This document shows positions 8,082-38,627 of a stretch of 41,550 nucleotides of DNA, in pieces. Numbering within the stretch: position 1 is the stretch's first letter; each line of letters begins with the position of its first letter. Source of the DNA: a virus; the IMG/VR virus record IMGVR_UViG_3300001282_000013, positions 1 through 41,550 of that record; one strand, given 5' to 3'. The translations under genes were made by a program, and so were the position numbers. A model generated the notes under the pieces. It had not been told where the DNA came from. It was given only the letters and a program-made list of their open reading frames with translations, and searched no databases.

Positions 8082-8434
8082 TGACCAGTAAAATTGTAAA
8101 AAAAGCCTGGGGAAACGAAACTATATGGGCCGATAATGACAAATATTGTGCCAAGTTTTTAAACTTTACTAAAGGATCAAAATTCAGTATGCATTTTCAT
8201 GCAGAAAAATCGGAAACTTGGTATGTGCTGTCAGGTAAATTTTTTTTAAAATGGATAGATACTAAAAACGCTAAACAATATGGTCAAACATTGGAGATCG
8301 GACAGACATGGACAAATCTGCAATTGGTCCCACATCAACTATTTTGTTTGGAAGAAGGCACAATAATTGAAGTTAGTACAAAAGACAGTGAAGAAGATAA
8401 TTATAGAGTATTGCCTGGTGATAATCAATCATGA
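8081..8434 (+). CDS. Cupin protein, mannose-6-P-isomerase-like
   Basis: GTG start at 8081 sharing a base with the previous TAG; AGGAC upstream. 117 residues of a single cupin barrel: KAWGNETIWADNDKYCAK at the N-terminus, metal-binding HFHAEKSETWYVLSG (histidines near 42-44, Glu near 48) and a second cupin motif around VPHQLF. This is the pattern of type II phosphomannose-isomerase and sugar-phosphate cupins. It overlaps the epimerase gene by ATGA, so it probably acts in the same nucleotide-heptose pathway, perhaps as a sugar-phosphate isomerase. The exact reaction cannot be read from the sequence. Confidence 0.8.
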   Translation: MTSKIVKKAWGNETIWADNDKYCAKFLNFTKGSKFSMHFHAEKSETWYVLSGKFFLKWIDTKNAKQYGQTLEIGQTWTNLQLVPHQLFCLEEGTIIEVSTKDSEEDNYRVLPGDNQS

Positions 8435-9204
8435 ATATTTTAGTTACAGGATATAAAGGATTTATAGGACAAAACTTTGTAAGTGCCCTAGCACATCATA
8501 ATATTAAATTGTATGAGTGGGGAGAACCACTACCAGATTTTAACAATGTTGAATTAGTTATTCATTTAGGAGCAATAACTAATACTCTTGAGCGTGACAT
8601 TCATAAAGTCATGTTACAAAACTATGAGTTCAGTTGCTGGTTATTTGAAGAATGCGGAAAGCGTAATATCAAGTTACAATACGCAAGCAGTGCAAGTGTG
8701 TATGGTGCAAGTAAAACTTTTCGCGAAACAGATATGCCTCAACCACAAAGTGTGTATGCATGGAGTAAGTTTTTATTTGAACAATATGTAGCAAAAAATC
8801 TTTACAAATATCCAAACTTAGTAGCACAAGGTTTTAGATATTTCAATGTGTATGGTCCACACGAACAACATAAAGGTGACCAAGCTAGTCCTTATCACAA
8901 GTTTTTAAGTCAAGCTATACATAATCGCGAGATTGTATTGTTCGAAAATTCTGAAAATTATTTACGAGATTTTATACCAGTAGAGCAGGTAATAGAAATA
9001 CAAACAAAATTTTTTAGTAAAGAAATATCTGGTGTGTGGAATGTAGGAACAGGGAACCCCCGAAGTTTTAGATCTATTGCTGAGCAAATTGCATCTAGAA
9101 CTGGTGCTACTATTAAATATATACCTATGCCTAACAATTTAAAAACACAATATCAATCCTATACCTGCGCTAATCTTGAATTATTAAGAAGTGTCATTGA
9201 ATGA
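8431..9204 (+). CDS. hldD: ADP-glyceromanno-heptose 6-epimerase
   Basis: 257-residue extended short-chain dehydrogenase. NAD(P) motif GYKGFIG at 7-13, ASSASVYG at 85-92, catalytic Tyr109-x3-Lys113 (YAWSK). Three patches match HldD (RfaD) specifically: GFRYFNVYGPHEQHKG (134-149), FENSENYLRDFIPV (171-184), and near the C-terminus YIPMPNNLKTQYQSYT. HldD converts ADP-D-glycero- to ADP-L-glycero-D-manno-heptose for LPS core. It is about 50 residues shorter than the usual 310, losing the C-terminal tail. It overlaps its neighbours by ATGA at both ends. Confidence 0.9.
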   Translation: MNILVTGYKGFIGQNFVSALAHHNIKLYEWGEPLPDFNNVELVIHLGAITNTLERDIHKVMLQNYEFSCWLFEECGKRNIKLQYASSASVYGASKTFRETDMPQPQSVYAWSKFLFEQYVAKNLYKYPNLVAQGFRYFNVYGPHEQHKGDQASPYHKFLSQAIHNREIVLFENSENYLRDFIPVEQVIEIQTKFFSKEISGVWNVGTGNPRSFRSIAEQIASRTGATIKYIPMPNNLKTQYQSYTCANLELLRSVIE

Positions 9205-9614
9205 AAAAGGTTATTATAAATGGATGTTTTGATATGTTACATCTGGGACATGTCAAGTTATTGGAATTCGCTAGCCTAATTCCATTTAGTTTTGTGTATG
9301 TGTTAATAGATAGTGATAGACGGATAAAGGAACTAAAAGGGCAAAGTAGACCAGTATATGGGGAACATGAGCGGGTTTTTTTACTGCAAAGTTTGAAGTA
9401 TGTAGATAGAGTAGAGGTGTTTGATTCAGACTTAGAACTAACAAATAAGATTAAAGACTTTGCACCAGACATAATGATTAAAGGTAGTGATTACAAAGAT
9501 AAGCCTATAATTGGCAAAGAATACTGTAAAGAGATAATATTTTATGAAAGAATCGACCAATATTCAACCACTAATAAAATTCAAAGTATTATTGATTGGG
9601 GAAAGTTGTATTGA
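9201..9614 (+). CDS. Heptose-1-phosphate adenylyltransferase (HldE C-domain type)
   Basis: 137 residues of a cytidylyltransferase-like fold. GCFDMLHLGH at 8-17 holds the HxGH nucleotide site, followed by a SRPV patch near residue 51, IKGSDYKDKPI near 94, and STTNKIQSI near the end. These match the C-terminal domain of HldE (RfaE), which transfers AMP from ATP to D-glycero-beta-D-manno-heptose 1-phosphate. In many bacteria this domain is fused to the kinase; here it is a separate gene overlapping the kinase by 71 bases. The start overlaps the epimerase stop (ATGA). Confidence 0.87.
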   Translation: MKKVIINGCFDMLHLGHVKLLEFASLIPFSFVYVLIDSDRRIKELKGQSRPVYGEHERVFLLQSLKYVDRVEVFDSDLELTNKIKDFAPDIMIKGSDYKDKPIIGKEYCKEIIFYERIDQYSTTNKIQSIIDWGKLY

Positions 9615-10338
9615 CAGGTATGAGTTCTGTCGTGTTATAAAAATAAGTGAAGAAGCGCCTATACCTGTAGTAAGAAATACCAAAATTTATGAAAAAAAGG
9701 GTATGGCAGCAAATGTAAATTTAAATTTGCGTATGTTGGGAATTTATCCAGACTTTGTTACTTGTACTGAACAAATATATAAAAAAAGAATTGTAGATGA
9801 AAAGACTAATCAAAAACTTTTGCGCATAGATTATGACCCACCTGTAGCAGTTTGGAATAGGCAGTTGCCCACTAGTATAAAAAATTATGATGCTATAATA
9901 ATTTCTGATTACAATAAAGGGTTTTTAGACTATGCCAGTATTTGTTATCTTATTGAAGAGTCTAGAGGTTTAGTATTCATTGATACTAAAAAACCCGATC
10001 TTCAACAATTTTATTCTGACCGTGTATTTGTAAAAATAAATGAGTTAGAATATCAAAAAACCACAAGTAAACCTAAAAATTTAGTGGTGACTAGAGGCAG
10101 TAATCATGTATTATACTATAATGATGGTAAGCAAGTGTATTCACCTTTCCAAGTACACAAACAAGAAATAACAGATGTTTGTGGTGCTGGAGACACATTT
10201 TTAGCAGCATTTTCGGTAAATTATTTGCAAACATCAAACATAGAAAATGCTATAATGTTTGCCAATAAAGCATCAGCCGTAACTGTACAGCACTTTGGTA
10301 ACTATGCACCAAGTTGGGAAGAAATCGACAATGCCTGA
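9544..10338 (+). CDS. Heptose-7-phosphate kinase (HldE N-domain type, PfkB family)
   Basis: 264-residue ribokinase-fold protein. Features matching the HldE kinase domain: KISEEAPIPVVRN (33-45), GMAANVNLNLRMLG (53-66), QKLLRID (90-96), SDYNKG (121-126), and the PfkB signature DVCGAGDTF (211-219) with catalytic Asp217. The family phosphorylates D-glycero-D-manno-heptose 7-phosphate at C1. It is shorter than the usual 310-320 residues, mainly between residues 75 and 115. ATG 9544 lies within the adenylyltransferase gene (71-base overlap); no better in-frame start follows. It shares 8 bases with the PolIII-like gene. Confidence 0.87.
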   Translation: MKESTNIQPLIKFKVLLIGESCIDRYEFCRVIKISEEAPIPVVRNTKIYEKKGMAANVNLNLRMLGIYPDFVTCTEQIYKKRIVDEKTNQKLLRIDYDPPVAVWNRQLPTSIKNYDAIIISDYNKGFLDYASICYLIEESRGLVFIDTKKPDLQQFYSDRVFVKINELEYQKTTSKPKNLVVTRGSNHVLYYNDGKQVYSPFQVHKQEITDVCGAGDTFLAAFSVNYLQTSNIENAIMFANKASAVTVQHFGNYAPSWEEIDNA

Positions 10339-16842: not shown

Positions 16843-17901
16843 ATGTCACTTTCTATTCAAGAATTCGTAATTTCTATCCTTCCAGGCAAGAAAAAACAAA
16901 ACCAAGCCGGTTGGATTAGTTTCAATGCAGTTTGCTGTCCACACAATGGAGAAAGTCAAGACACAAGGGGTAGAGCTGGAATTATTGCTAGTCCTGATGG
17001 TAAAATCAGTTATAGTTGCTTTAATTGTAAATTCAAAACTAGCTATATTCCAGGCAGAGCACTTACTTATAAATTTAGAAAACTTCTTGAATGGTTAGGT
17101 GTAGATTCTTTAGAAATAAAACGACTAAGTATCCTTGCTTGGCAAATAAAAGAAACAATAGATCCAAATACTATACTGCCAATCGAAGATGAAATAAAAT
17201 TTGAACCAAAGCAATTACCCAAAGAAGCATTGAATTTTTTTGCCTGGGTAGAATTTTATGAACTAGCAGAACGGCCTTATGATAAAGGATTGGTAGATTC
17301 TGTACAATATATCTACGATAGAAAAATATCATTACAAAAATATGAGTTTTATTGGAGCCCAGAAGTAGAGCATAAACTAAGTCATAGGGTAATTATCCCA
17401 TTCAAATACCGAAATGAAATAGTAGGGTATACTGCTAGGGCTTTAAATTCAGGTATTGTTCCAAAATATCATAGTAATCATCCAGCAGGGTTTGTATTTA
17501 ATTTAGATAATCAAAAAAACGATAGCAAATTCGTAATAGTTTGTGAAGGTGCTTTTGATGCAATGAGTATAGATGGTGTTAGTACACAAACAAATGATAT
17601 TAGTGAACAACAGGCAAACCTAATTGATGAATTAGCAAGAGAAGTAATTGTAGTGCCAGACTTTGATTTACAAATAAACAAAAATGGAAAAAAAGTTTGG
17701 CCAGGTGAGCAAATGATTAACAAAGCCATAGAATATGGATGGTCAGTAAGTTTCCCAGACTGGAGAGAAAATTGTAAAGATATTAATGATTCTGTTGTAA
17801 AATACGGGAAATTATTCACTATATATAATATTTTACAAACAAAAGAATCAAATTCGTTAAAGATTTCTTTACTGGCAAAAAAGTATAAACAAACTATATG
17901 A
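16843..17901 (+). CDS. DNA primase, gp61/DnaG type
   Basis: 352 residues, near T4 gp61 (342). N-terminal zinc module: C31, C32 and H34 (CCPHNG), then C59 and C62 (CFNC), which recognises primer sites. Toprim core: EGAFDA (235-240, Glu235) and DFD (Asp273, Asp275) for metal-dependent primer synthesis. It makes RNA primers for lagging-strand synthesis together with the gp41 helicase encoded next, with which it overlaps by ATGA. First gene of the P6 unit; predicted leaderless. Confidence 0.9.
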   Translation: MSLSIQEFVISILPGKKKQNQAGWISFNAVCCPHNGESQDTRGRAGIIASPDGKISYSCFNCKFKTSYIPGRALTYKFRKLLEWLGVDSLEIKRLSILAWQIKETIDPNTILPIEDEIKFEPKQLPKEALNFFAWVEFYELAERPYDKGLVDSVQYIYDRKISLQKYEFYWSPEVEHKLSHRVIIPFKYRNEIVGYTARALNSGIVPKYHSNHPAGFVFNLDNQKNDSKFVIVCEGAFDAMSIDGVSTQTNDISEQQANLIDELAREVIVVPDFDLQINKNGKKVWPGEQMINKAIEYGWSVSFPDWRENCKDINDSVVKYGKLFTIYNILQTKESNSLKISLLAKKYKQTI

Positions 17902-19298
17902 CTAAAGAATATAATACAGATCTGCAAAAACTTTTTTTGGAAATGCTATTACAAAATCCAGAAAGTTATGTTCGAATTCAAAATATATACAATCCAGATA
18001 ATTTTGATAGGAGTTTAAAAACCACTGCCAAATTTATTAAAGAGCATGTAAGTCAATACAGTACCATGCCCAAGCTGGAACAAATACAAGCAGTAACAGG
18101 ATTAGAATTAAAACCAATACCAGACCTTGCAGAGAATCATTATGAATGGTTCATGACTGAATTTGAACAATTTACTAAAAGGCAAGAACTAGAAAGGGCA
18201 ATTTTACTCAGTGCAGATTTAATTGAAAAAGGTGACTTTGACCCAGTTGAAAAGTTAATCAAAGATGCAGTACAAATCAGTTTAACTAAAGATTTAGGTA
18301 CAGACTATTTTGCTGATCCACGCACTAGATTAATGAAGATTAAAAATAACAATGGGCAAGTCAGTACTGGTTGGCCTACATTAGATCGTCGTTTGTTTGG
18401 TGGTATGAATCGAGGTGAGCTTAATATATTTGCAGGTGGTTCAGGCAGTGGTAAAAGTCTTTTCATGCAAAACATTAGCATAAATTGGATCACACAAGGA
18501 CTAAATGGAGTGTTTCTTACATTAGAACTTAGTGAAGAACTTTGTGCTATGCGTATGGATAGTATGATTGCTAATGTAAGTACTAGAGAAATTTTTAAAG
18601 ACTTAGATAATTTAGAAATGAAAATTAAAATGGCTGGCAAAAAATCTGGCAGTCTTCGTATCAAATATATGCCTGCACAAAGTAATGTGAATCAAATTCG
18701 TGCTTATTTAAAAGAACTAGAAGTACAAACAAATCAACGAACAGATTTTATTATGGTTGATTACTTGGATCTTGTAATGCCAGTAAGTGCTAAAGTTAGT
18801 CCAAATGATTTGTTCGTTAAAGACAAATATGTCAGTGAAGAACTAAGAAATTTAGCTAAAGAATTTAATATTCTTATGATTACTGCAAGCCAACTTAATC
18901 GTAGTGCAGTTGAAGAAATTGAGTTTGACCATAGTCATATTTCAGGTGGTATTAGTAAAATTAATACAGCAGATAATGTATTTGGTATTTTTACTAGTAG
19001 GGCAATGCGTGAGCGTGGCCGTTATCAAATTCAATTAATGAAAACTAGAAGCAGTAGTGGTGTTGGACAAAAAGTAGATTTAGATTTTGATCTAGAAAGT
19101 TTAAGAATTACAGATCCAGGTGAGGATGCACAAGGCACTCCAGGCACTCTTAAACCACAAACTACCAGTATTTTAAATCAATTAAAAACAACTAGTAGGG
19201 TCGAGAGTACTCCTAACAACCAAAACAGCAAAATTAATGCAGATGTCCAAACAAATAAGCTAAAATCAATGTTGGCTAGTTTGAAAACAAGCAATTAG
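17898..19298 (+). CDS. Replicative DNA helicase, gp41/DnaB type
   Basis: 466 residues, close to T4 gp41 (475). Helical N-terminal domain (1-135), then a RecA-like core with Walker A GGSGSGKS (180-187), catalytic Glu210 in FLTLELSEE, Walker B FIMVDYLDL (284-292), and TASQLNR of motif H3. A Ser/Thr/Asn-rich tail (about 415-466) is probably flexible and may contact primase or loader. Hexameric 5'-3' helicase driving the fork. Translationally coupled to primase (ATGA). Confidence 0.92.
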   Translation: MTKEYNTDLQKLFLEMLLQNPESYVRIQNIYNPDNFDRSLKTTAKFIKEHVSQYSTMPKLEQIQAVTGLELKPIPDLAENHYEWFMTEFEQFTKRQELERAILLSADLIEKGDFDPVEKLIKDAVQISLTKDLGTDYFADPRTRLMKIKNNNGQVSTGWPTLDRRLFGGMNRGELNIFAGGSGSGKSLFMQNISINWITQGLNGVFLTLELSEELCAMRMDSMIANVSTREIFKDLDNLEMKIKMAGKKSGSLRIKYMPAQSNVNQIRAYLKELEVQTNQRTDFIMVDYLDLVMPVSAKVSPNDLFVKDKYVSEELRNLAKEFNILMITASQLNRSAVEEIEFDHSHISGGISKINTADNVFGIFTSRAMRERGRYQIQLMKTRSSSGVGQKVDLDFDLESLRITDPGEDAQGTPGTLKPQTTSILNQLKTTSRVESTPNNQNSKINADVQTNKLKSMLASLKTSN

Positions 19299-19322: not shown

Positions 19323-19330
19323 TATAAATA
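19323..19330 (+). promoter_or_regulatory. Late promoter TATAAATA
   Basis: Exact T4-type late promoter core in the 55-base gap after the helicase gene. It would start transcription about 5 bases downstream, leaving a leader with TAGGAG in front of TTG 19354. Confidence 0.85.
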
Positions 19331-19353: not shown

Positions 19354-19605
19354 TTGCTTCGCAAAACCCGTAGTTTATTAGAAGAATTAGAATCACTTAG
19401 ACTACTAAGAGACAGAGAAAACTTGGTTGAAAGTAGGGCTACTCATGTAATTCAGGGTGCAATTAATTTACTTAATTTTATTAAGGAAAACTATTCTGAA
19501 GAACAAAGCGAAGAATTAAAAAAAAGACTATTGGTTAGTATCAAGAACGAAGATCAAGCCAAATTTATTCGTGGCGTAAAAAAATTTAAAAATGAAAATA
19601 AATGA
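19354..19605 (+). CDS. Conserved small helical protein, 83 aa
   Basis: TTG start 7 bases after GGAG. Predicted entirely helical and charged: KTRSLLEELESLRLLRDREN, then ATHVIQGAINLLNFIKENY and a basic C-terminus (FIRGVKKFKNENK). I recall the same layout in marine T4-like phages. No function is known to me. First gene behind a consensus late promoter, so probably virion assembly or structure. Overlaps the next gene by 14 bases. Confidence 0.7.
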   Translation: MLRKTRSLLEELESLRLLRDRENLVESRATHVIQGAINLLNFIKENYSEEQSEELKKRLLVSIKNEDQAKFIRGVKKFKNENK

Positions 19606-20341
19606 AGTTGTCATTAAAGAAGGTGTTTTAGATGCCATAAAGTTTTTAGGCAGAGCTGCCTGGCAAGCCGCCGGCGGCAATGTTGATAAGTCTGATCCAG
19701 CCATTAGTCGTGCAAATTTAGAGTATGTAAGATCAAAATTAGCCAATGAGATTTATCAAAAGTTTGTTGGTGAATTAATAAAGCAAGGCATTCTTAATAG
19801 AAACGGGAAATTAACAGATCCTGGCAAAAGTGACGATATTATTAATATGGCTAAGGAGTTTCTGAAACAAGCATATAGAGCATATATTGTAACTCCAGAA
19901 AGACTAAATTTATTAGATACAAAAATAGACAATAGTGCGCCAACTTCTCTATCACAATTACGATCTTGGTTTGCAGGAGTGAACAGTTTTTACTTAGAAA
20001 TGTTGGAACAGGTTGAACAGACTACTGCTAGTAGTACTAGAGAAATTATATCTCAAATGGCTACAGGTATCAATAGTAATTTACCGGACCAGCTTAGAGA
20101 TCTTATTAAAGATTTGTTGAAGAATATGGCATCTAAATCAAGTTATGCTTTAACTATTCCTTGGAGCAATACTAGGCTTGCAGCAAATGCAATTAGAGCA
20201 GCAGGAACAGCAAGAGGAAACCCAGTAACTACGGAAGAAATTACTTTATATGATGAATCATTAAAAGCAATCATGCTTTTAAGACAACAAGACAAGTTAA
20301 ATTATGCTCTTGCTGCAAAGTTTGCTCGTAGTATAAGCTAG
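19592..20341 (+). CDS. Probable virion/prohead protein, 249 aa
   Basis: Begins MKINEVVIKEGVLDAI, a short amphipathic leader ending in Ile-Lys-Glu, matching the (L/I)xE form cut by T4-type prohead protease. The body is helical, with SQLRSWFAGVNSFYLEMLEQ and a later Ala-rich part. No enzyme motif is visible. Late-gene position and the leader suggest a protein packaged in the head; this is inference. A basic, Asn-rich middle would fit an internal DNA-contacting protein. Confidence 0.65.
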   Translation: MKINEVVIKEGVLDAIKFLGRAAWQAAGGNVDKSDPAISRANLEYVRSKLANEIYQKFVGELIKQGILNRNGKLTDPGKSDDIINMAKEFLKQAYRAYIVTPERLNLLDTKIDNSAPTSLSQLRSWFAGVNSFYLEMLEQVEQTTASSTREIISQMATGINSNLPDQLRDLIKDLLKNMASKSSYALTIPWSNTRLAANAIRAAGTARGNPVTTEEITLYDESLKAIMLLRQQDKLNYALAAKFARSIS

Positions 20342-20349
20342 GTATTAAT

Positions 20350-21492
20350 ATGCGAATAAATGAAATTTTAACAGAACAGGTCCAAGTAGGTAAAAAACAT
20401 CTTACACATCCAGAAGATCTTGCAGCATTTTATGGCACAGATGGAGCAAATTATGCACTTAATGCCATTATTAATACAGTAAAGAACCCAGCTCAAATAA
20501 CAATTAAATATGATGGTTACCCTGCTATAGTATGGGGTTGGGATTCAAATGGCAGATTCATTGTAGTTGACAAACATATGTTTGATAAAAAGGATGGGTC
20601 TGGTAGACAAATTTTCAGCCCACAAGATTTTATTAACTATGATACAGCAAGAGGTGTAGATCGCAGTGGGTTACATGGTGCAATTGCAAATGCTTGGCAG
20701 TCTTTACAACAAAGCACACCTAAAACTCCAGGATATTACTGGGGAGATATGTTATTTGGTAATACATTAAGCCCTGTTGCCCAAGGCAATCAGCAAATGT
20801 ATGTGTTTAAAGCAAACCCAAGAGGATTAACATATAATATTGATGTTAATAGTGAACTTGGCAGAATGTTACAGGGCAAAACTGTTGGAATAGCGGTTCA
20901 TCAATTTATACCTGCAACTTCAGTAAGTGCAGAGGACGCAGTTTCCTTAGATGGAACATTGGGCAATTTAAAACCCAAAGGAAATGTTGCGATTATTCCA
21001 GCTAAATTGCCTATAACTCCACAACTTAAATTAAATAGAAACCAAATTAATTTTGTAAAAACAACAATCAACAATAACAGTCAAGCAGTGAATGCATTAT
21101 TTGAAACTATGCCTATTGCTCAAAATACATGGATTGCATCTTTGGTGGGGCCTTTTATTAATCAAGAACTAATTAGAAATTCCAATCTTAATGATATTAC
21201 TAAAAGGTCTTATAAGTTTATTCTGGACAAGGCACCTAGTAATAGAATGCGTTCTGTATTAGAACCTTGGTTACAACAGCAACAACAAGGATTAGCTGCC
21301 ATGTGGACAATGTGGGCAGCATTATTTAATTGTAAAAATATCTTAATCCCACAACTAGAACAAGCAGCTCAAGCAAGTCCAGTAAAAGGATATCTAGACA
21401 CAGGTGTAGAAAGTCAGGAAGGCTATGTGTCTAGTGGAGTTAAGTTTGTGGATAGACTTGGCTTTAGTGCTCAAATACATGCTAAACGATAA
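20350..21492 (+). CDS. Cryptic nucleotidyltransferase/ligase-like protein
   Basis: 380 residues starting MRINEILTEQVQVGK (possible head-targeting leader, LTE at 7-9). Lys53 lies in KYDGYPAIVWGW (53-64), the form of motif I (KxDG) that carries AMP in ATP-dependent ligases. Two further patches fit later motifs: YYWGDMLFGN (129-138) in the motif III position and EGYV (357-360), then GVKFVDRLGFS (363-373), resembling motifs IV and V of RNA-ligase-like enzymes. The 200 residues between III and IV are longer than usual. Related phage proteins are, to my memory, of unknown function (perhaps DUF6267). Enzyme activity is a hypothesis. Confidence 0.6.
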   Translation: MRINEILTEQVQVGKKHLTHPEDLAAFYGTDGANYALNAIINTVKNPAQITIKYDGYPAIVWGWDSNGRFIVVDKHMFDKKDGSGRQIFSPQDFINYDTARGVDRSGLHGAIANAWQSLQQSTPKTPGYYWGDMLFGNTLSPVAQGNQQMYVFKANPRGLTYNIDVNSELGRMLQGKTVGIAVHQFIPATSVSAEDAVSLDGTLGNLKPKGNVAIIPAKLPITPQLKLNRNQINFVKTTINNNSQAVNALFETMPIAQNTWIASLVGPFINQELIRNSNLNDITKRSYKFILDKAPSNRMRSVLEPWLQQQQQGLAAMWTMWAALFNCKNILIPQLEQAAQASPVKGYLDTGVESQEGYVSSGVKFVDRLGFSAQIHAKR

Positions 21493-21507: not shown

Positions 21508-21515
21508 TATAAATA
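21508..21515 (+). promoter_or_regulatory. Late promoter TATAAATA
   Basis: Exact late core, 38 bases before ATG 21554. The predicted leader holds a small hairpin TGCG-GTAA-CGCA (21522-21533, GNRA-type loop) and AAAGGA before the ATG. With the terminator at 21961 it defines a single-gene unit. Confidence 0.9.
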
Positions 21516-21553: not shown

Positions 21554-21934
21554 ATGGCAGTTTTTACAAGAACAAATGGTAGTGCAAAAACAGTTGTAAG
21601 CGTAGGCAATGTAGCTTTAAGTGCAGAAACAACTGGCGTACCAATTAGTACAGGTATTGGTAAGCCAATTCGTTGTATTGGCTTTACAGCAAATAACAGC
21701 GTAGCAGCACAAATGGGAACTGGCGAAGTTGTTGAAGCAGTTCTAGCTTATGTTGGCTTAACTAACACAGTTTTAGCTTATCAGGTAGATACAACCCGTA
21801 TTAGTGTAGTTATGGAAGATTCATCAGAGACCTTCACTACTGCAAATGCTAATGCAATTATTGATGGCAGAGGTATTACTGGCTTTGGTATCAATGCAGT
21901 TACAGATGTTGGATTAAAATTAGCAGCATCCTAA
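21554..21934 (+). CDS. Small abundant-type structural protein, 126 aa
   Basis: Strong ribosome site (AAAGGA) and consensus late promoter upstream, strong terminator downstream: a single-gene unit built for high output. The protein is small, Ala/Thr/Val-rich, with few charges, and probably a beta sandwich (MAVFTRTNGSAKTVVSVGNV at the N-terminus). Codon choice includes GCA/GTT/GGC in the way of highly expressed genes. These traits fit a capsid decoration or other high-copy virion protein. No family is recognised, so the role is inferred from expression signals only. Confidence 0.65.
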   Translation: MAVFTRTNGSAKTVVSVGNVALSAETTGVPISTGIGKPIRCIGFTANNSVAAQMGTGEVVEAVLAYVGLTNTVLAYQVDTTRISVVMEDSSETFTTANANAIIDGRGITGFGINAVTDVGLKLAAS

Positions 21935-23002: not shown

Positions 23003-23668
23003 ATGAACCTTAACGAATTAAATTATAATAAACAACATAAACTAAACCAACTTATGGAAAGTAGGTTTGGTGTAAAAATTAATTATGGTGGCCTTAGTGT
23101 AGCTAAAGCAGAAAAAATGCGTTATCAAATTAATGAGCATTTAATTGGATTACGCAAAACTTATGGTGCAAGCCAACTAGAGACCAATCCTAAATACATG
23201 GAAATGCTTTTAGTTAAAGAAGGGTTAACAGAATGGCTTTCTACTCGTCGTCAAATCAATGAAGGCGAAATAGAGGCAGCAGAAGTAGTGTTAGCAGCTA
23301 AAGATATGGTAGATAGTATTCAAAACATGTTAGAAGATGCTAGTAAGATGTTAAATGAACAAATGCCTCCTTTATTAGACAGTATTAGAGATCAACTTGG
23401 GCCTGAAAAGTCTGATAGTTATAAATCTACAGCAGGACAGGCCTTACAATCATTAATTGATAATCTAAATACAGTAAGACAAAGTTTAGACCAGGGTGCA
23501 AGAGGACTTGCAGGCGAAGAAGGTGCCCCTACACCAATGAGTGCAAATTTGCCTCCAGCCGACCTAGGTGACGGCGGTGCAGAAATCGATTTAGAAATTC
23601 CAGATAATATTGCAACTTCTACAGCAGGTGAAGGTGGATCAAAACCGTTAGGGCGTGAGAAGCGTTAA
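23003..23668 (+). CDS. Probable prohead core/structural protein, 221 aa
   Basis: Helical protein with a conserved-looking body: LMESRFGVKINYGGLSVAKA, NPKYMEMLLVKEGL, then GEIEAAEVVLAAKDMVDSIQ and QMPPLLDSIRDQLG. It ends in an acidic, Gly/Pro-rich, probably disordered tail. I recall this pattern in marine T4-like phages as a virion protein. Helical content with acidic tail resembles scaffold/core proteins, but no direct homology is shown. Overlaps the next gene by one base. Confidence 0.65.
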   Translation: MNLNELNYNKQHKLNQLMESRFGVKINYGGLSVAKAEKMRYQINEHLIGLRKTYGASQLETNPKYMEMLLVKEGLTEWLSTRRQINEGEIEAAEVVLAAKDMVDSIQNMLEDASKMLNEQMPPLLDSIRDQLGPEKSDSYKSTAGQALQSLIDNLNTVRQSLDQGARGLAGEEGAPTPMSANLPPADLGDGGAEIDLEIPDNIATSTAGEGGSKPLGREKR

Positions 23669-24174
23669 TGCGCTATTATGAATTTGCTAGGCAGTTAAAC
23701 GAAGACTTTGATCAAGGTGCATCAAAGTCTTTAATGGATGTTATTACTTACGAAAAATCTAGAATTGATGCGGAAGATGCTAATCCTAGAATAAGTGCAA
23801 GCAGACTTATTACTATTATGCAAAATGTAGGTTATGAAAGTTTTAACTTTAGAGATTTAGCTAATGCCTATGCTAAATCTCAAGATCTTCAACAGTTAAT
23901 TTCTAAACCTGAAAAGAATCAAATGATAGAGTTATTGCCAGATGAAGAAACGGTATCTACAGATCAAGGCACAGATTTATCAGACATGCCCCCTCCAGAA
24001 ACTGCAATGCCACCTGATCAACCCATGGGCACTATGCAGGTTGGACAACCAGCACAACAGCCAGGCTTAGAAGAACCCATAAGTTCTGAACCGAGCGGAC
24101 CAATAGAAAGCCCACAAGGCACAGAACAAACGGTATCGGCTATGGCAAAGAAAGCGTTGAAAAGACGCCAATAG
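23668..24174 (+). CDS. Probable virion protein, 168 aa
   Basis: Starts at TAATG, coupled to the gene before. N-terminus MRYYEFARQLNEDFDQG, a leader ending Leu-Asn-Glu like the other possible head-targeting leaders. A compact helical domain follows (SRLITIMQNVGYESFNFRDL), then about 80 residues rich in Pro, Gln, Glu (MPPPETAMPPDQPMGTMQVG) and a basic end KKALKRRQ. The disordered acidic-then-basic tail fits an internal head or core protein. Confidence 0.65.
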   Translation: MRYYEFARQLNEDFDQGASKSLMDVITYEKSRIDAEDANPRISASRLITIMQNVGYESFNFRDLANAYAKSQDLQQLISKPEKNQMIELLPDEETVSTDQGTDLSDMPPPETAMPPDQPMGTMQVGQPAQQPGLEEPISSEPSGPIESPQGTEQTVSAMAKKALKRRQ

Positions 24175-24206: not shown

Positions 24207-24695
24207 ATGATAAAACCAATTAGAATTTGGCCCGATCCCATATTATTAACTCCTACTCATTTATGGGATCATCAGAACCCACAACTAGAATGTGACCAGT
24301 TAGAAAAAGATTTAACTGATACTTTATTAGCGGAAAATGCATTAGGATTGGCAGCTAATCAAATAGGTGTACAATATAGAATATTAGCGATTAATACACA
24401 GGATGACAACAACATTAGAATCATGTATAATCCAGTCATATTATATGAAAGCAAAGAAGATGAACTATCCTACGAAGGATGTTTAAGTTTTCCTAAGATT
24501 AGATTAGAAATACCAAGAAGCAATTATGTTGAAGTTTCTTGGCGTGATAAACTTAATTATGTACATAGTAGAAGATTTACTGGTATAGATGCTAGATGTA
24601 TTTTACATGAGATAGACCATTTAAACGGTATAGTTTTTAAACAATATGTAAGTAATTTAAAATTTAACCATGCATTAAAACAAGCCAAAAATTAA
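24207..24695 (+). CDS. def: Peptide deformylase
   Basis: 162 residues with all three deformylase motifs: GLAANQIG (47-54), EGCLS (90-94, metal ligand Cys92) and HEIDH (134-138, ligands His134/His138, catalytic Glu135). It removes N-formyl groups from new proteins and is a recurrent marine-phage auxiliary gene, thought to help meet high phage translation. Length is normal for a compact phage form. No clear ribosome site precedes the ATG. Contiguous with the nuclease gene at 24698. Confidence 0.93.
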   Translation: MIKPIRIWPDPILLTPTHLWDHQNPQLECDQLEKDLTDTLLAENALGLAANQIGVQYRILAINTQDDNNIRIMYNPVILYESKEDELSYEGCLSFPKIRLEIPRSNYVEVSWRDKLNYVHSRRFTGIDARCILHEIDHLNGIVFKQYVSNLKFNHALKQAKN

Positions 24696-30121: not shown

Positions 30122-30439
30122 ATGCTAATCAATAAACAAAAAATTTCGGATGGTGACATTCTTTGTTTCAAACTTGTAAATGGTGACGAGGTAGTGGCAA
30201 AATTAGTTTCTGTAGACGATCTTAAATTTACAGTAAGCAAACCTTGCACAGTAATGCCTAGTGCTCAAGGTATAGGTCTTATGCAAAGTCTATTTTGTGG
30301 GGATATAAATACTATTGATATTGAACTTCGCAAAGACCATGTGCTTATGTTTGCCCCTGTCATTAAAGAAATGGAAAATCATTATTTAAGTACAGTAACA
30401 GGTATAAAGACAGTTAGTAAAGGGTCTATTGTAGTATAA
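30122..30439 (+). CDS. Small conserved beta-barrel-type protein, 105 aa
   Basis: AAAGGA ribosome site. The sequence LVNGDEVVAKLVSVDDLKFT followed by KPCTVMP is the pattern of Sm-like/SH3-like small barrels common in marine T4-like phages. A later segment has DHVLMFAPVIKEMENHYL. No enzyme motif. It stands between glutaredoxin and PAAR. A nucleic-acid or assembly role is possible but not shown. Confidence 0.7.
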   Translation: MLINKQKISDGDILCFKLVNGDEVVAKLVSVDDLKFTVSKPCTVMPSAQGIGLMQSLFCGDINTIDIELRKDHVLMFAPVIKEMENHYLSTVTGIKTVSKGSIVV

Positions 30440-30447
30440 GGAGCGTT

Positions 30448-30891
30448 ATGCCTGGTGGTGTGGTAAGAATAGGTGATATATTTGGGCCTGGTGGTGTAAT
30501 TGGGCCCCCAATAGCATCTGGCATCTATGTAAATGGAAGACCTGCAGCTTTAGTAGGTGCAGTTTATTCTTCACATCCTTGTTGTGGAGCCAAAAAATGT
30601 CCACCAACTCATTGCGGTGGTGCTATAGGTGATGTTCCTGTAGGTGTATTGTTTAACGGAAAGCCGCCTTTAACAAAATCTGGAATAGGATGGTGTAAAC
30701 ATAAAGTAGAGACAGCTAGTCCAGATGTATTTGTGTCAGACGGTGGTATGTTGGGACTAGCAATGGCAATAGCTGGTGCAGCATTAGGTGGACCTGAAGG
30801 AATTACTCAGCCAAGCTTTGCTGAACAATTGACACAAAAAATAGCATTTGACATGTTCAATCAAGCACTCTCACAAGCTGGTTATAAATAA
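30448..30891 (+). CDS. PAAR-domain spike-tip protein
   Basis: 147 residues. PAAR repeats: VVRIGDIFGPGGVIGPP, IYVNGRPAALVG, GDVPVGVLFNGKPPLTKSG, DVFVSDGG. PAAR proteins fold as a zinc-bound cone that sharpens the tail spike (T4 gp5.4). A Cys-rich insertion (HPCCGAKKCPPTHCGG) in the middle has more Cys and His than the usual single zinc site needs. A C-terminal helix may attach to the spike. Strong AAGGAG ribosome site. Confidence 0.9.
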   Translation: MPGGVVRIGDIFGPGGVIGPPIASGIYVNGRPAALVGAVYSSHPCCGAKKCPPTHCGGAIGDVPVGVLFNGKPPLTKSGIGWCKHKVETASPDVFVSDGGMLGLAMAIAGAALGGPEGITQPSFAEQLTQKIAFDMFNQALSQAGYK

Positions 30892-33802: not shown

Positions 33803-34117
33803 ATGAAAATTAATTTCAAGGCTATTGCAGAAAATGTTTTAAATTTTTTACAGGTTCATGTTAGAAAGATTACTGCAGATACATTAAATTGGACTACAGC
33901 TATTATTCTTCATTGTGCAACCTTGCCTAATCTTATTGCTATTATTAGTGGGTTAAGTGACAAAATGCCCGATCTAGAAATAATTTTGTTTATTTGGAGC
34001 GCATTAACTTTACTATTTGCAAGAGCAATTATTTTACGCGATAGATTAAATATTATTACTATTGGTGCTGGATTTATCACACAAGCAGTACTAATGGCTT
34101 TAATAATGTTTAAGTAA
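33803..34117 (+). CDS. Holin candidate, three membrane segments
   Basis: 104 residues behind AAAGGA. Three hydrophobic stretches: ~29-50 (TTAIILHCATLPNLIAIISG), ~56-76 (LEIILFIWSALTLLFARAII), ~84-103 (IITIGAGFITQAVLMALIMF). The N-terminus is amphipathic and basic. Size, three-segment topology and position right after a cell-wall hydrolase fit a class I holin. Sequence similarity to a known holin is not claimed. Confidence 0.65.
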   Translation: MKINFKAIAENVLNFLQVHVRKITADTLNWTTAIILHCATLPNLIAIISGLSDKMPDLEIILFIWSALTLLFARAIILRDRLNIITIGAGFITQAVLMALIMFK

Positions 34118-38619: not shown

Positions 38620-38627
38620 TATAAATA
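38620..38627 (+). promoter_or_regulatory. Late promoter TATAAATA for hsp20
   Basis: Exact T4-type late core, 61 bases before ATG 38689. Suggests Hsp20 is made at high level late in infection. Confidence 0.88.

Follow-up and report, generated by a model that had tools for sequence, protein, structure and literature searches.

The gene at positions 20350 to 21492 (plus strand) encodes a protein of 380 amino acids belonging to DUF6267 (PF19782), for which the structural models predict, with high confidence, a ligase-type fold and active site. The best overall explanation, which we consider on balance probable, is that the protein is a covalent nucleotidyltransferase (NTase) of the ligase superfamily, constituting a separate family therein, with a predicted function in nucleic-acid end repair and putatively packaged in the window phage. 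The window, i.e. the whole stretch of 41,550 nucleotides that was analysed, is a portion of a virus record of 52.9 kb from a T4-like phage. The first-pass annotation had taken the protein for a divergent nucleotidyltransferase of the ligase type in which Lys53 is the nucleophile; this prediction is now well supported by invariant motifs and two confident models.

Family membership and predicted active site

The gene is defined by its open reading frame, by its matches to Pfam DUF6267 (E 7.4e-33; 114.9 bits against a cut-off of 27; residues 16-374) and to phrog_455 (E 1.2e-21), by an alignment of 84 members, and by an AlphaFold2 model. Neither DUF6267 nor phrog_455 carries an assigned function, and both go unmentioned in the literature searched. 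With a divergent member from phage C48C1 as the query, at least 471 phage records match the family; nearly all are Synechococcus or Prochlorococcus myoviruses, and the remainder includes phages of Pelagibacter, Methylophilales, Vibrio, Pseudoalteromonas, and Stenotrophomonas. Candidate cellular homologues were set aside: the matches in genome_contigs are mostly metagenome-assembled bins or single-cell assemblies that, judged by their titles only, resemble phage contigs, and since they look phage-derived they offer no cellular context. One DUF6267-containing protein, H8ZNG8 of Synechococcus phage metaG-MbCM1 (JN371769), is labelled 'NrdB ribonucleotide reductase A subunit', which is probably a misannotation.

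All motifs noted earlier are present in the open reading frame: KYDGYPAIVWGW begins at Lys53, YYWGDMLFGN covers Gly132-Asp133, EGYV corresponds to residues 357-360, and GVKFVDRLGFS holds Lys365. Across 84 non-redundant members, the most distant of which are 20% identical to the window protein, no variation occurs at K53, D55, G56, P58, G63, K75, D133, Y162, H184, K329, E357, G358, K365, R369, and F372; because of this invariance the motifs are not due to chance. Motif I (KYDG; 20506..20517, plus strand, as are all features below) contains Lys53, the predicted nucleotidylated lysine, and its K53, D55, and G56 stay invariant in a second alignment (n = 40) that includes short forms of the protein. 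Lys75 (20572..20574), 22 residues past Lys53, is a candidate motif Ia, to be compared with K35 and the invariant K54/R55 of T4 Rnl2. At the motif III position an invariant acidic residue is found where expected, namely Asp (D133) instead of the classical Glu; this motif III-like pair Gly132-Asp133 (20743..20748) lies in a model strand spanning residues 128-136. The nearly invariant Phe153 (20806..20808), part of a motif IIIa-like YVFKANP, follows D133 by 20 residues, the same spacing as between E99 and F119 of T4 Rnl2. Motif IV is Glu357-Gly358 of EGYV (21418..21423), and motif V contains Lys365 (21442..21444; VKFVDR). The spacing between motifs IV and V varies, with 8 residues in the window protein and 12-14 in most relatives.

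Ahead of motif IV the model has, by DSSP, an all-helical insertion (residues 230-340; 21037..21369). Most of this segment is gone in natural forms of about 300 amino acids from the cyanophage branch (S-CAM8, Syn9, and S-RIM types), which retain the same invariant catalytic set in the alignment of 40 sequences. An active nucleotidyltransferase would be expected to behave in just this way, losing a helical linker but keeping precisely the ligase-like residues.

None of the sequence searches supports kinship with ligases, so that the case for it rests on the fold and on the invariance. In Pfam, no ligase family matches the 380-residue protein up to E 1, and there is no match to PF09414 (T4 Rnl2-type RNA ligase). 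Searches of PDB sequences with single-protein and profile queries gave chance matches only (ribosomal L5 and others), and hhalign against a T4 Rnl2 profile of 13 sequences aligned EGYV alone, without significance (E 0.29). DNA_ligase_A_M (T4 gp30 type) does not match, and the 15 residues past Lys365 are too few for an OB domain; DNA_ligase_aden (NAD+-dependent) does not match either, and no Ia-like domain was recognised in the 52 residues preceding Lys53.

Predicted fold and likeness to known ligases

The AlphaFold2 model of the window protein, run without templates, has a pLDDT of 92.9 and a pTM of 0.89, and only residues 1-9 fall under pLDDT 50. A second template-free model, of a naturally short member of 298 amino acids, has a pLDDT of 90.4; the two are not fully independent because their alignments share members. 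Structural matches were ranked with VIA-align, for the window model among the best 1000 PDB chains retrieved by Foldseek. With this model, rows 1-41 and 43 are nucleic-acid ligases, the sole other row among the best 43 being the poxvirus polymerase-holoenzyme complex 8k8u (Z 4.4); from row 44 on (Z 4.1), unrelated helical rows are interspersed with more ligases. The Z scores are 7.9 for the Naegleria RNA ligase (184 residues), 6.8 for the trypanosome RNA editing ligase, 6.7 for T4 Rnl1, 6.4 for T4 Rnl2, and at most 6.2 for DNA ligases. With the 298-residue model the best 50 rows are all ligases or ligase-containing complexes (Naegleria RNA ligase 8.3, T4 Rnl1 7.8, fungal tRNA ligase 6.6, T4 Rnl2 6.5, DNA ligases at most 5.4), and Foldseek's own best 12 matches are all ligases. 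The Foldseek E-values are weak for both models; its first row for the window model, Legionella LegA15, was dropped at a TM of about 0.1. The structure prediction against ligase NTase domains that the first-pass annotation had suggested as a check recovers the NTase fold, both models matching ligases before anything else.

A Z of about 8 is stated to be reachable by a chance arrangement, though a list taken up by one superfamily is not normally the outcome. A moderate Z is by itself unconvincing to us; what does convince us, as far as models go, is a single superfamily filling the list in combination with invariant residues at the motif places. In the structural alignments residue 379 of the window model ends at Naegleria 339, residue 375 at T4 Rnl2 234, and residue 293 of the short model at Naegleria 339. 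These ends put Lys365 (Lys280 in the short form) about 3 residues or less from the motif V lysines of the two enzymes, K326 and K225/K227 respectively, the latter pair being invariant in the Rnl2 alignment. By the VIA end points Lys365 stands 13-14 residues ahead of the aligned end, as does K326 of the Naegleria enzyme.

The best structural match of both models, over 173-184 residues, is the Rnl5-type RNA ligase of Naegleria gruberi (PDB 5cot/6vt1). It has in common with DUF6267 the KxDG motif I and an NTase domain that ends soon past motif V, but it possesses an N-terminal OB domain of its own and a Glu in motif III, it lacks a helical insert ahead of motif IV, and the identity is 7-13%. T4 Rnl1 and Rnl2 share the NTase fold and the EGYV motif IV, whereas DUF6267 is without their C-terminal domain, has Asp for the motif III Glu, carries the helical insert as an extra, and shows no profile similarity to Rnl2. 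With the ATP-dependent DNA ligases (T4 gp30, human LIG1) it shares the covalent NTase core and motifs I, IV, and V at lower Z, but not their OB domain, their N-terminal DNA-binding domain, or a match to DNA_ligase_A_M. The anatomy specific to DUF6267 thus comprises a five-helix insertion (about 230-340), an Asp in motif III, and a C-terminus without an OB or any other known domain for nucleic-acid binding. Because of these differences DUF6267 cannot be filed with any named ligase family and is for now best treated as a new one within the ligase superfamily. Carrying the helical insert and lacking an OB domain, the protein would presumably hold its substrate in another way; if the ligase-type reading is true, it would add a compact architecture without OB domain to the known ligases.

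Putative leader peptide, and possible late expression and packaging

Codons 1-9 (20350..20376) encode MRINEILTE, a putative head-targeting propeptide with a cleavage site L-T-E. It resembles the propeptide of T4 gp24 (MAKINELLRE) and is of the same type as that of T4 IPIII (MKTYQEFIAE), the L/I-x-E site being common to them; gp21 cuts behind L/I-X-E, and the ten N-terminal residues of IPIII are enough for targeting (PMC9026906). Unlike in gp24 and IPIII, the leader here precedes a predicted enzyme, and its length ranges from 0 to about 30 across the DUF6267 family. An L/I-x-E is found in 64 of 76 distinct DUF6267 leaders nine or more residues long; in 500 control draws of length-matched starts of other ORFs from the same loci, the mean was 21.1 and the maximum 33. 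The relatives in this count are not independent, though their leaders are very diverse. The earlier suggestion of a head-targeting-like leader gains support from this enrichment, from the likeness to gp24 and IPIII, and from the disorder of the model exactly over residues 1-9. Other window genes of unassigned function have T4-type head-targeting-like leaders as well: 19592-20341 (MKINEVVIKE), 23668-24174 (MRYYEFARQLNE), and 33803-34117 (MKINFKAIAE). The first of these (plus strand, 249 amino acids) is conserved as the upstream neighbour of DUF6267 in close relatives only, and its product has zero matches among phage records.

The published virion protein tables of phages S-SZBM1 and S-CREM2 list a leader-bearing cytidylyltransferase (MRFRQFIIE and MKNFSSFLTE, respectively), and the leaderless DUF6267 proteins of both phages are absent from them. 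With the leader protein in and the leaderless DUF6267 out, the tables are consistent with the leader as a ticket to the head, which predicts packaging in the window phage; we regard this putative packaging as moderately likely. An abundant virion protein of S-CREM2 that is comparable in length, gp112 (408 amino acids), had been suspected of being a DUF6267 member and was ruled out, the true member being gp87. The leader seems to shift between proteins of one set: it is on the cytidylyltransferase in S-SZBM1 (locus L116) and S-CREM2 (L202), and on both DUF6267 (MYNDLLVE) and a P-loop protein (MIPFILKE) in HTVC008M (L119).

The T4-type late-promoter-like octamer TATAAATA stands at 19323..19330, just ahead of the three-gene unit 19354-21492 that includes the DUF6267 gene, a position retained in close relatives only and not family-wide, and again at 21508..21515, right after the gene and ahead of the ORF at 21554. 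Three further copies (30304-30311, 30883-30890, and 38620-38627), two of them at most 62 nt from an ORF start, bring the number on the plus strand of the window to five. This frequency is not above that in shuffled sequence. Positions 5-80 nt ahead of an ORF start add up to about 10% of the window, and four of the five copies fall there. The first-pass annotation had placed the gene in a late region, which holds in part: the octamers before the unit and after the gene speak for it, but the gene lies directly behind replication genes, since a primase-like gene (16843-17901; phrog_47) and the replicative helicase gene (17898-19298; phrog_19) stand directly 5' of the unit. Ribonucleotide reductase genes are found downstream of the DUF6267 gene and tail-fibre genes further upstream. 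Late expression of the unit is plausible.

Neighbouring genes, ligase complement and possible roles

In cyanophage-type (KWDGAP) members, a HIGH-type CTP_transf_like domain is often encoded by the next gene or fused to the C-terminus: 22 of 34 KWDGAP loci have a HIGH motif no more than 4.5 kb away, with three more fused according to Pfam, against 6 of 61 loci of other members. At one locus (L091:6907-7965) a HAD_SAK_1 phosphatase gene ('Swiss Army Knife RNA repair' in Pfam) lies directly upstream and overlaps the DUF6267 start, and at another (L104:345-1388) a homologous HAD gene with the same FFDIDETV motif does so too. Some lineages have, near DUF6267, an AAA_33/zeta-type kinase matching phrog_505 'polynucleotide kinase', an adenylate kinase, or a Pol-beta nucleotidyltransferase fused to a HIGH domain. 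The two kinases are found together in a DUF6267-adjacent cassette at L099:6636-11248, L107, L110, L112, and L082, which at L099 and L107 also encodes a protein of about 780 amino acids in which the Pol-beta nucleotidyltransferase is joined to the HIGH-type CTP_transf_like domain. Such a cassette would seem to be a set for nucleic-acid repair that is as yet uncharacterised; in phage RNA repair, Pol-beta nucleotidyltransferases and such HAD phosphatases accompany RNA ligases (PMC7824862, PMC9503650). None of these HIGH-type, HAD, kinase, or Pol-beta partners adjoins the DUF6267 gene of the window phage, and the neighbour evidence therefore applies to the family and not to this locus.

In the mechanism that we propose, Lys53 would accept AMP from ATP, with Glu357, Lys365, and Asp133 binding nucleotide and metal, and the AMP would be handed to a nucleic-acid 5'-phosphate end that is then joined to a 3'-OH. 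The protein of the window phage would probably be made late and targeted to the head through its first nine residues, which the prohead protease would remove by a cut behind Glu9; the rest would be injected alongside the DNA. We consider the predicted joining of nucleic-acid ends rather probable and, should ends indeed be joined, RNA the somewhat likelier substrate. Two observations favour RNA ends (e.g. cleaved tRNA) over DNA nicks, namely the RNA ligases as nearest folds and the RNA-repair-type neighbours in some relatives.

The ligase complement was surveyed in the whole records of 15 phages for three families only, DNA_ligase_A_M, RNA_ligase, and DNA_ligase_aden. T4 has DNA_ligase_A_M and RNA_ligase and no DUF6267. 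DUF6267 is present with all three families absent in the cyanophage and pelagiphage records S-PM2, P-HM1, S-SZBM1, S-CAM8, Syn9, S-CREM2, and HTVC008M, and in C48C1; the authors of the S-CREM2 genome list a ligase (PMC10665884) that the three-family census did not detect. DUF6267 occurs together with a DNA ligase in DLP6 and G001 and with RNA_ligase in G004 and G001, so that it is not simply a substitute. The pattern fits DUF6267 as either a substitute or a parallel ligase.

A replacement DNA ligase, which would close nicks and join Okazaki fragments in phage DNA and so stand in for the gp30 that cyanomyoviruses lack, would agree with the position of the gene, which adjoins the gp41/uvsX/gp61 replication genes in most phages, with the lack of DNA_ligase_A_M and DNA_ligase_aden in the seven cyanophage and pelagiphage records and in C48C1, and with the recorded absence of g30 from cyanomyoviruses (PMC2984593). 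We nevertheless think it unlikely: DLP6 and G001 already have a standard DNA ligase, cyanobacterial hosts possess an NAD+ ligase of their own (control, Synechococcus elongatus), DNA ligases score lower than RNA ligases against models that have no OB domain, and the neighbours in some relatives are of the RNA-repair kind.

The fold might also serve in a reaction other than ligation, the nucleotide on Lys53 being passed to a protein, a small molecule, or an RNA 5' end in a capping-like manner, in partnership with the HIGH-type adenylyl- or cytidylyltransferase. The tight and recurrent fusion or adjacency to the CTP_transf_like domain would then be accounted for, this partner class being virion-borne in cyanophages and interpreted as NMNAT-like (PMC3037559, PMC9146016, PMC9602691, PMC10665884), as would the Asp in motif III and the lack of an OB or other known nucleic-acid-binding domain. 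Such a role is quite unlikely, since the nearest folds are end-joining ligases and not capping enzymes, and the HAD, PNK-like, and Pol-beta neighbours suggest nucleic-acid ends. Highly improbable is a ligase fold that is catalytically dead and serves the head in a structural or DNA-binding role; although the leader is of the head-protein type, and neighbours and the fused partner class occur in virions, all predicted catalytic residues are invariant in the 84 members and in the short forms, which is unexpected for a dead enzyme, and the leaderless members are missing from two virion proteomes. A covalent nucleotidyltransferase engaged in end repair remains our preferred reading. Its widest version is offered as a tentative and rather doubtful proposal: in cyanomyoviruses and related phages, DUF6267 would be the ligase that has long been missing, and would do the sealing within a nucleic-acid repair set that also has the HIGH-type nucleotidylyltransferase and, in some phages, a PNK-like kinase, a HAD phosphatase, and a Pol-beta nucleotidyltransferase. 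Exchangeable T4-type leaders would bring part of this set into the head for injection, allowing RNA or DNA repair from the onset of infection.

Cyanomyoviruses are among the most abundant marine viruses. DUF6267 is near-universal in them and functionally unassigned, and the ligase-type reading supplies it with a directly testable chemistry. It would also give a partner to the 'cytidylyltransferase' that recurs in cyanophage virions, suggest that T4-like phages are able to deliver repair enzymes with their DNA, and speak to the remark that cyanomyoviruses have no recognisable ligase (PMC2984593).

The only CTP_transf_like ORF of the window (9201-9614) was considered as a partner and set aside, as it lies 11 kb off, with a nucleotide-sugar epimerase as its neighbour, and probably has nothing to do with DUF6267. 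Epimerase, CTP_transf_like protein, and a phrog_8133 protein (9544-10338) are encoded in series at 8431-10338, likely as a sugar-nucleotide module. The window further encodes a peptide deformylase at 24207-24695 (phrog_2890, E 2.2e-34).
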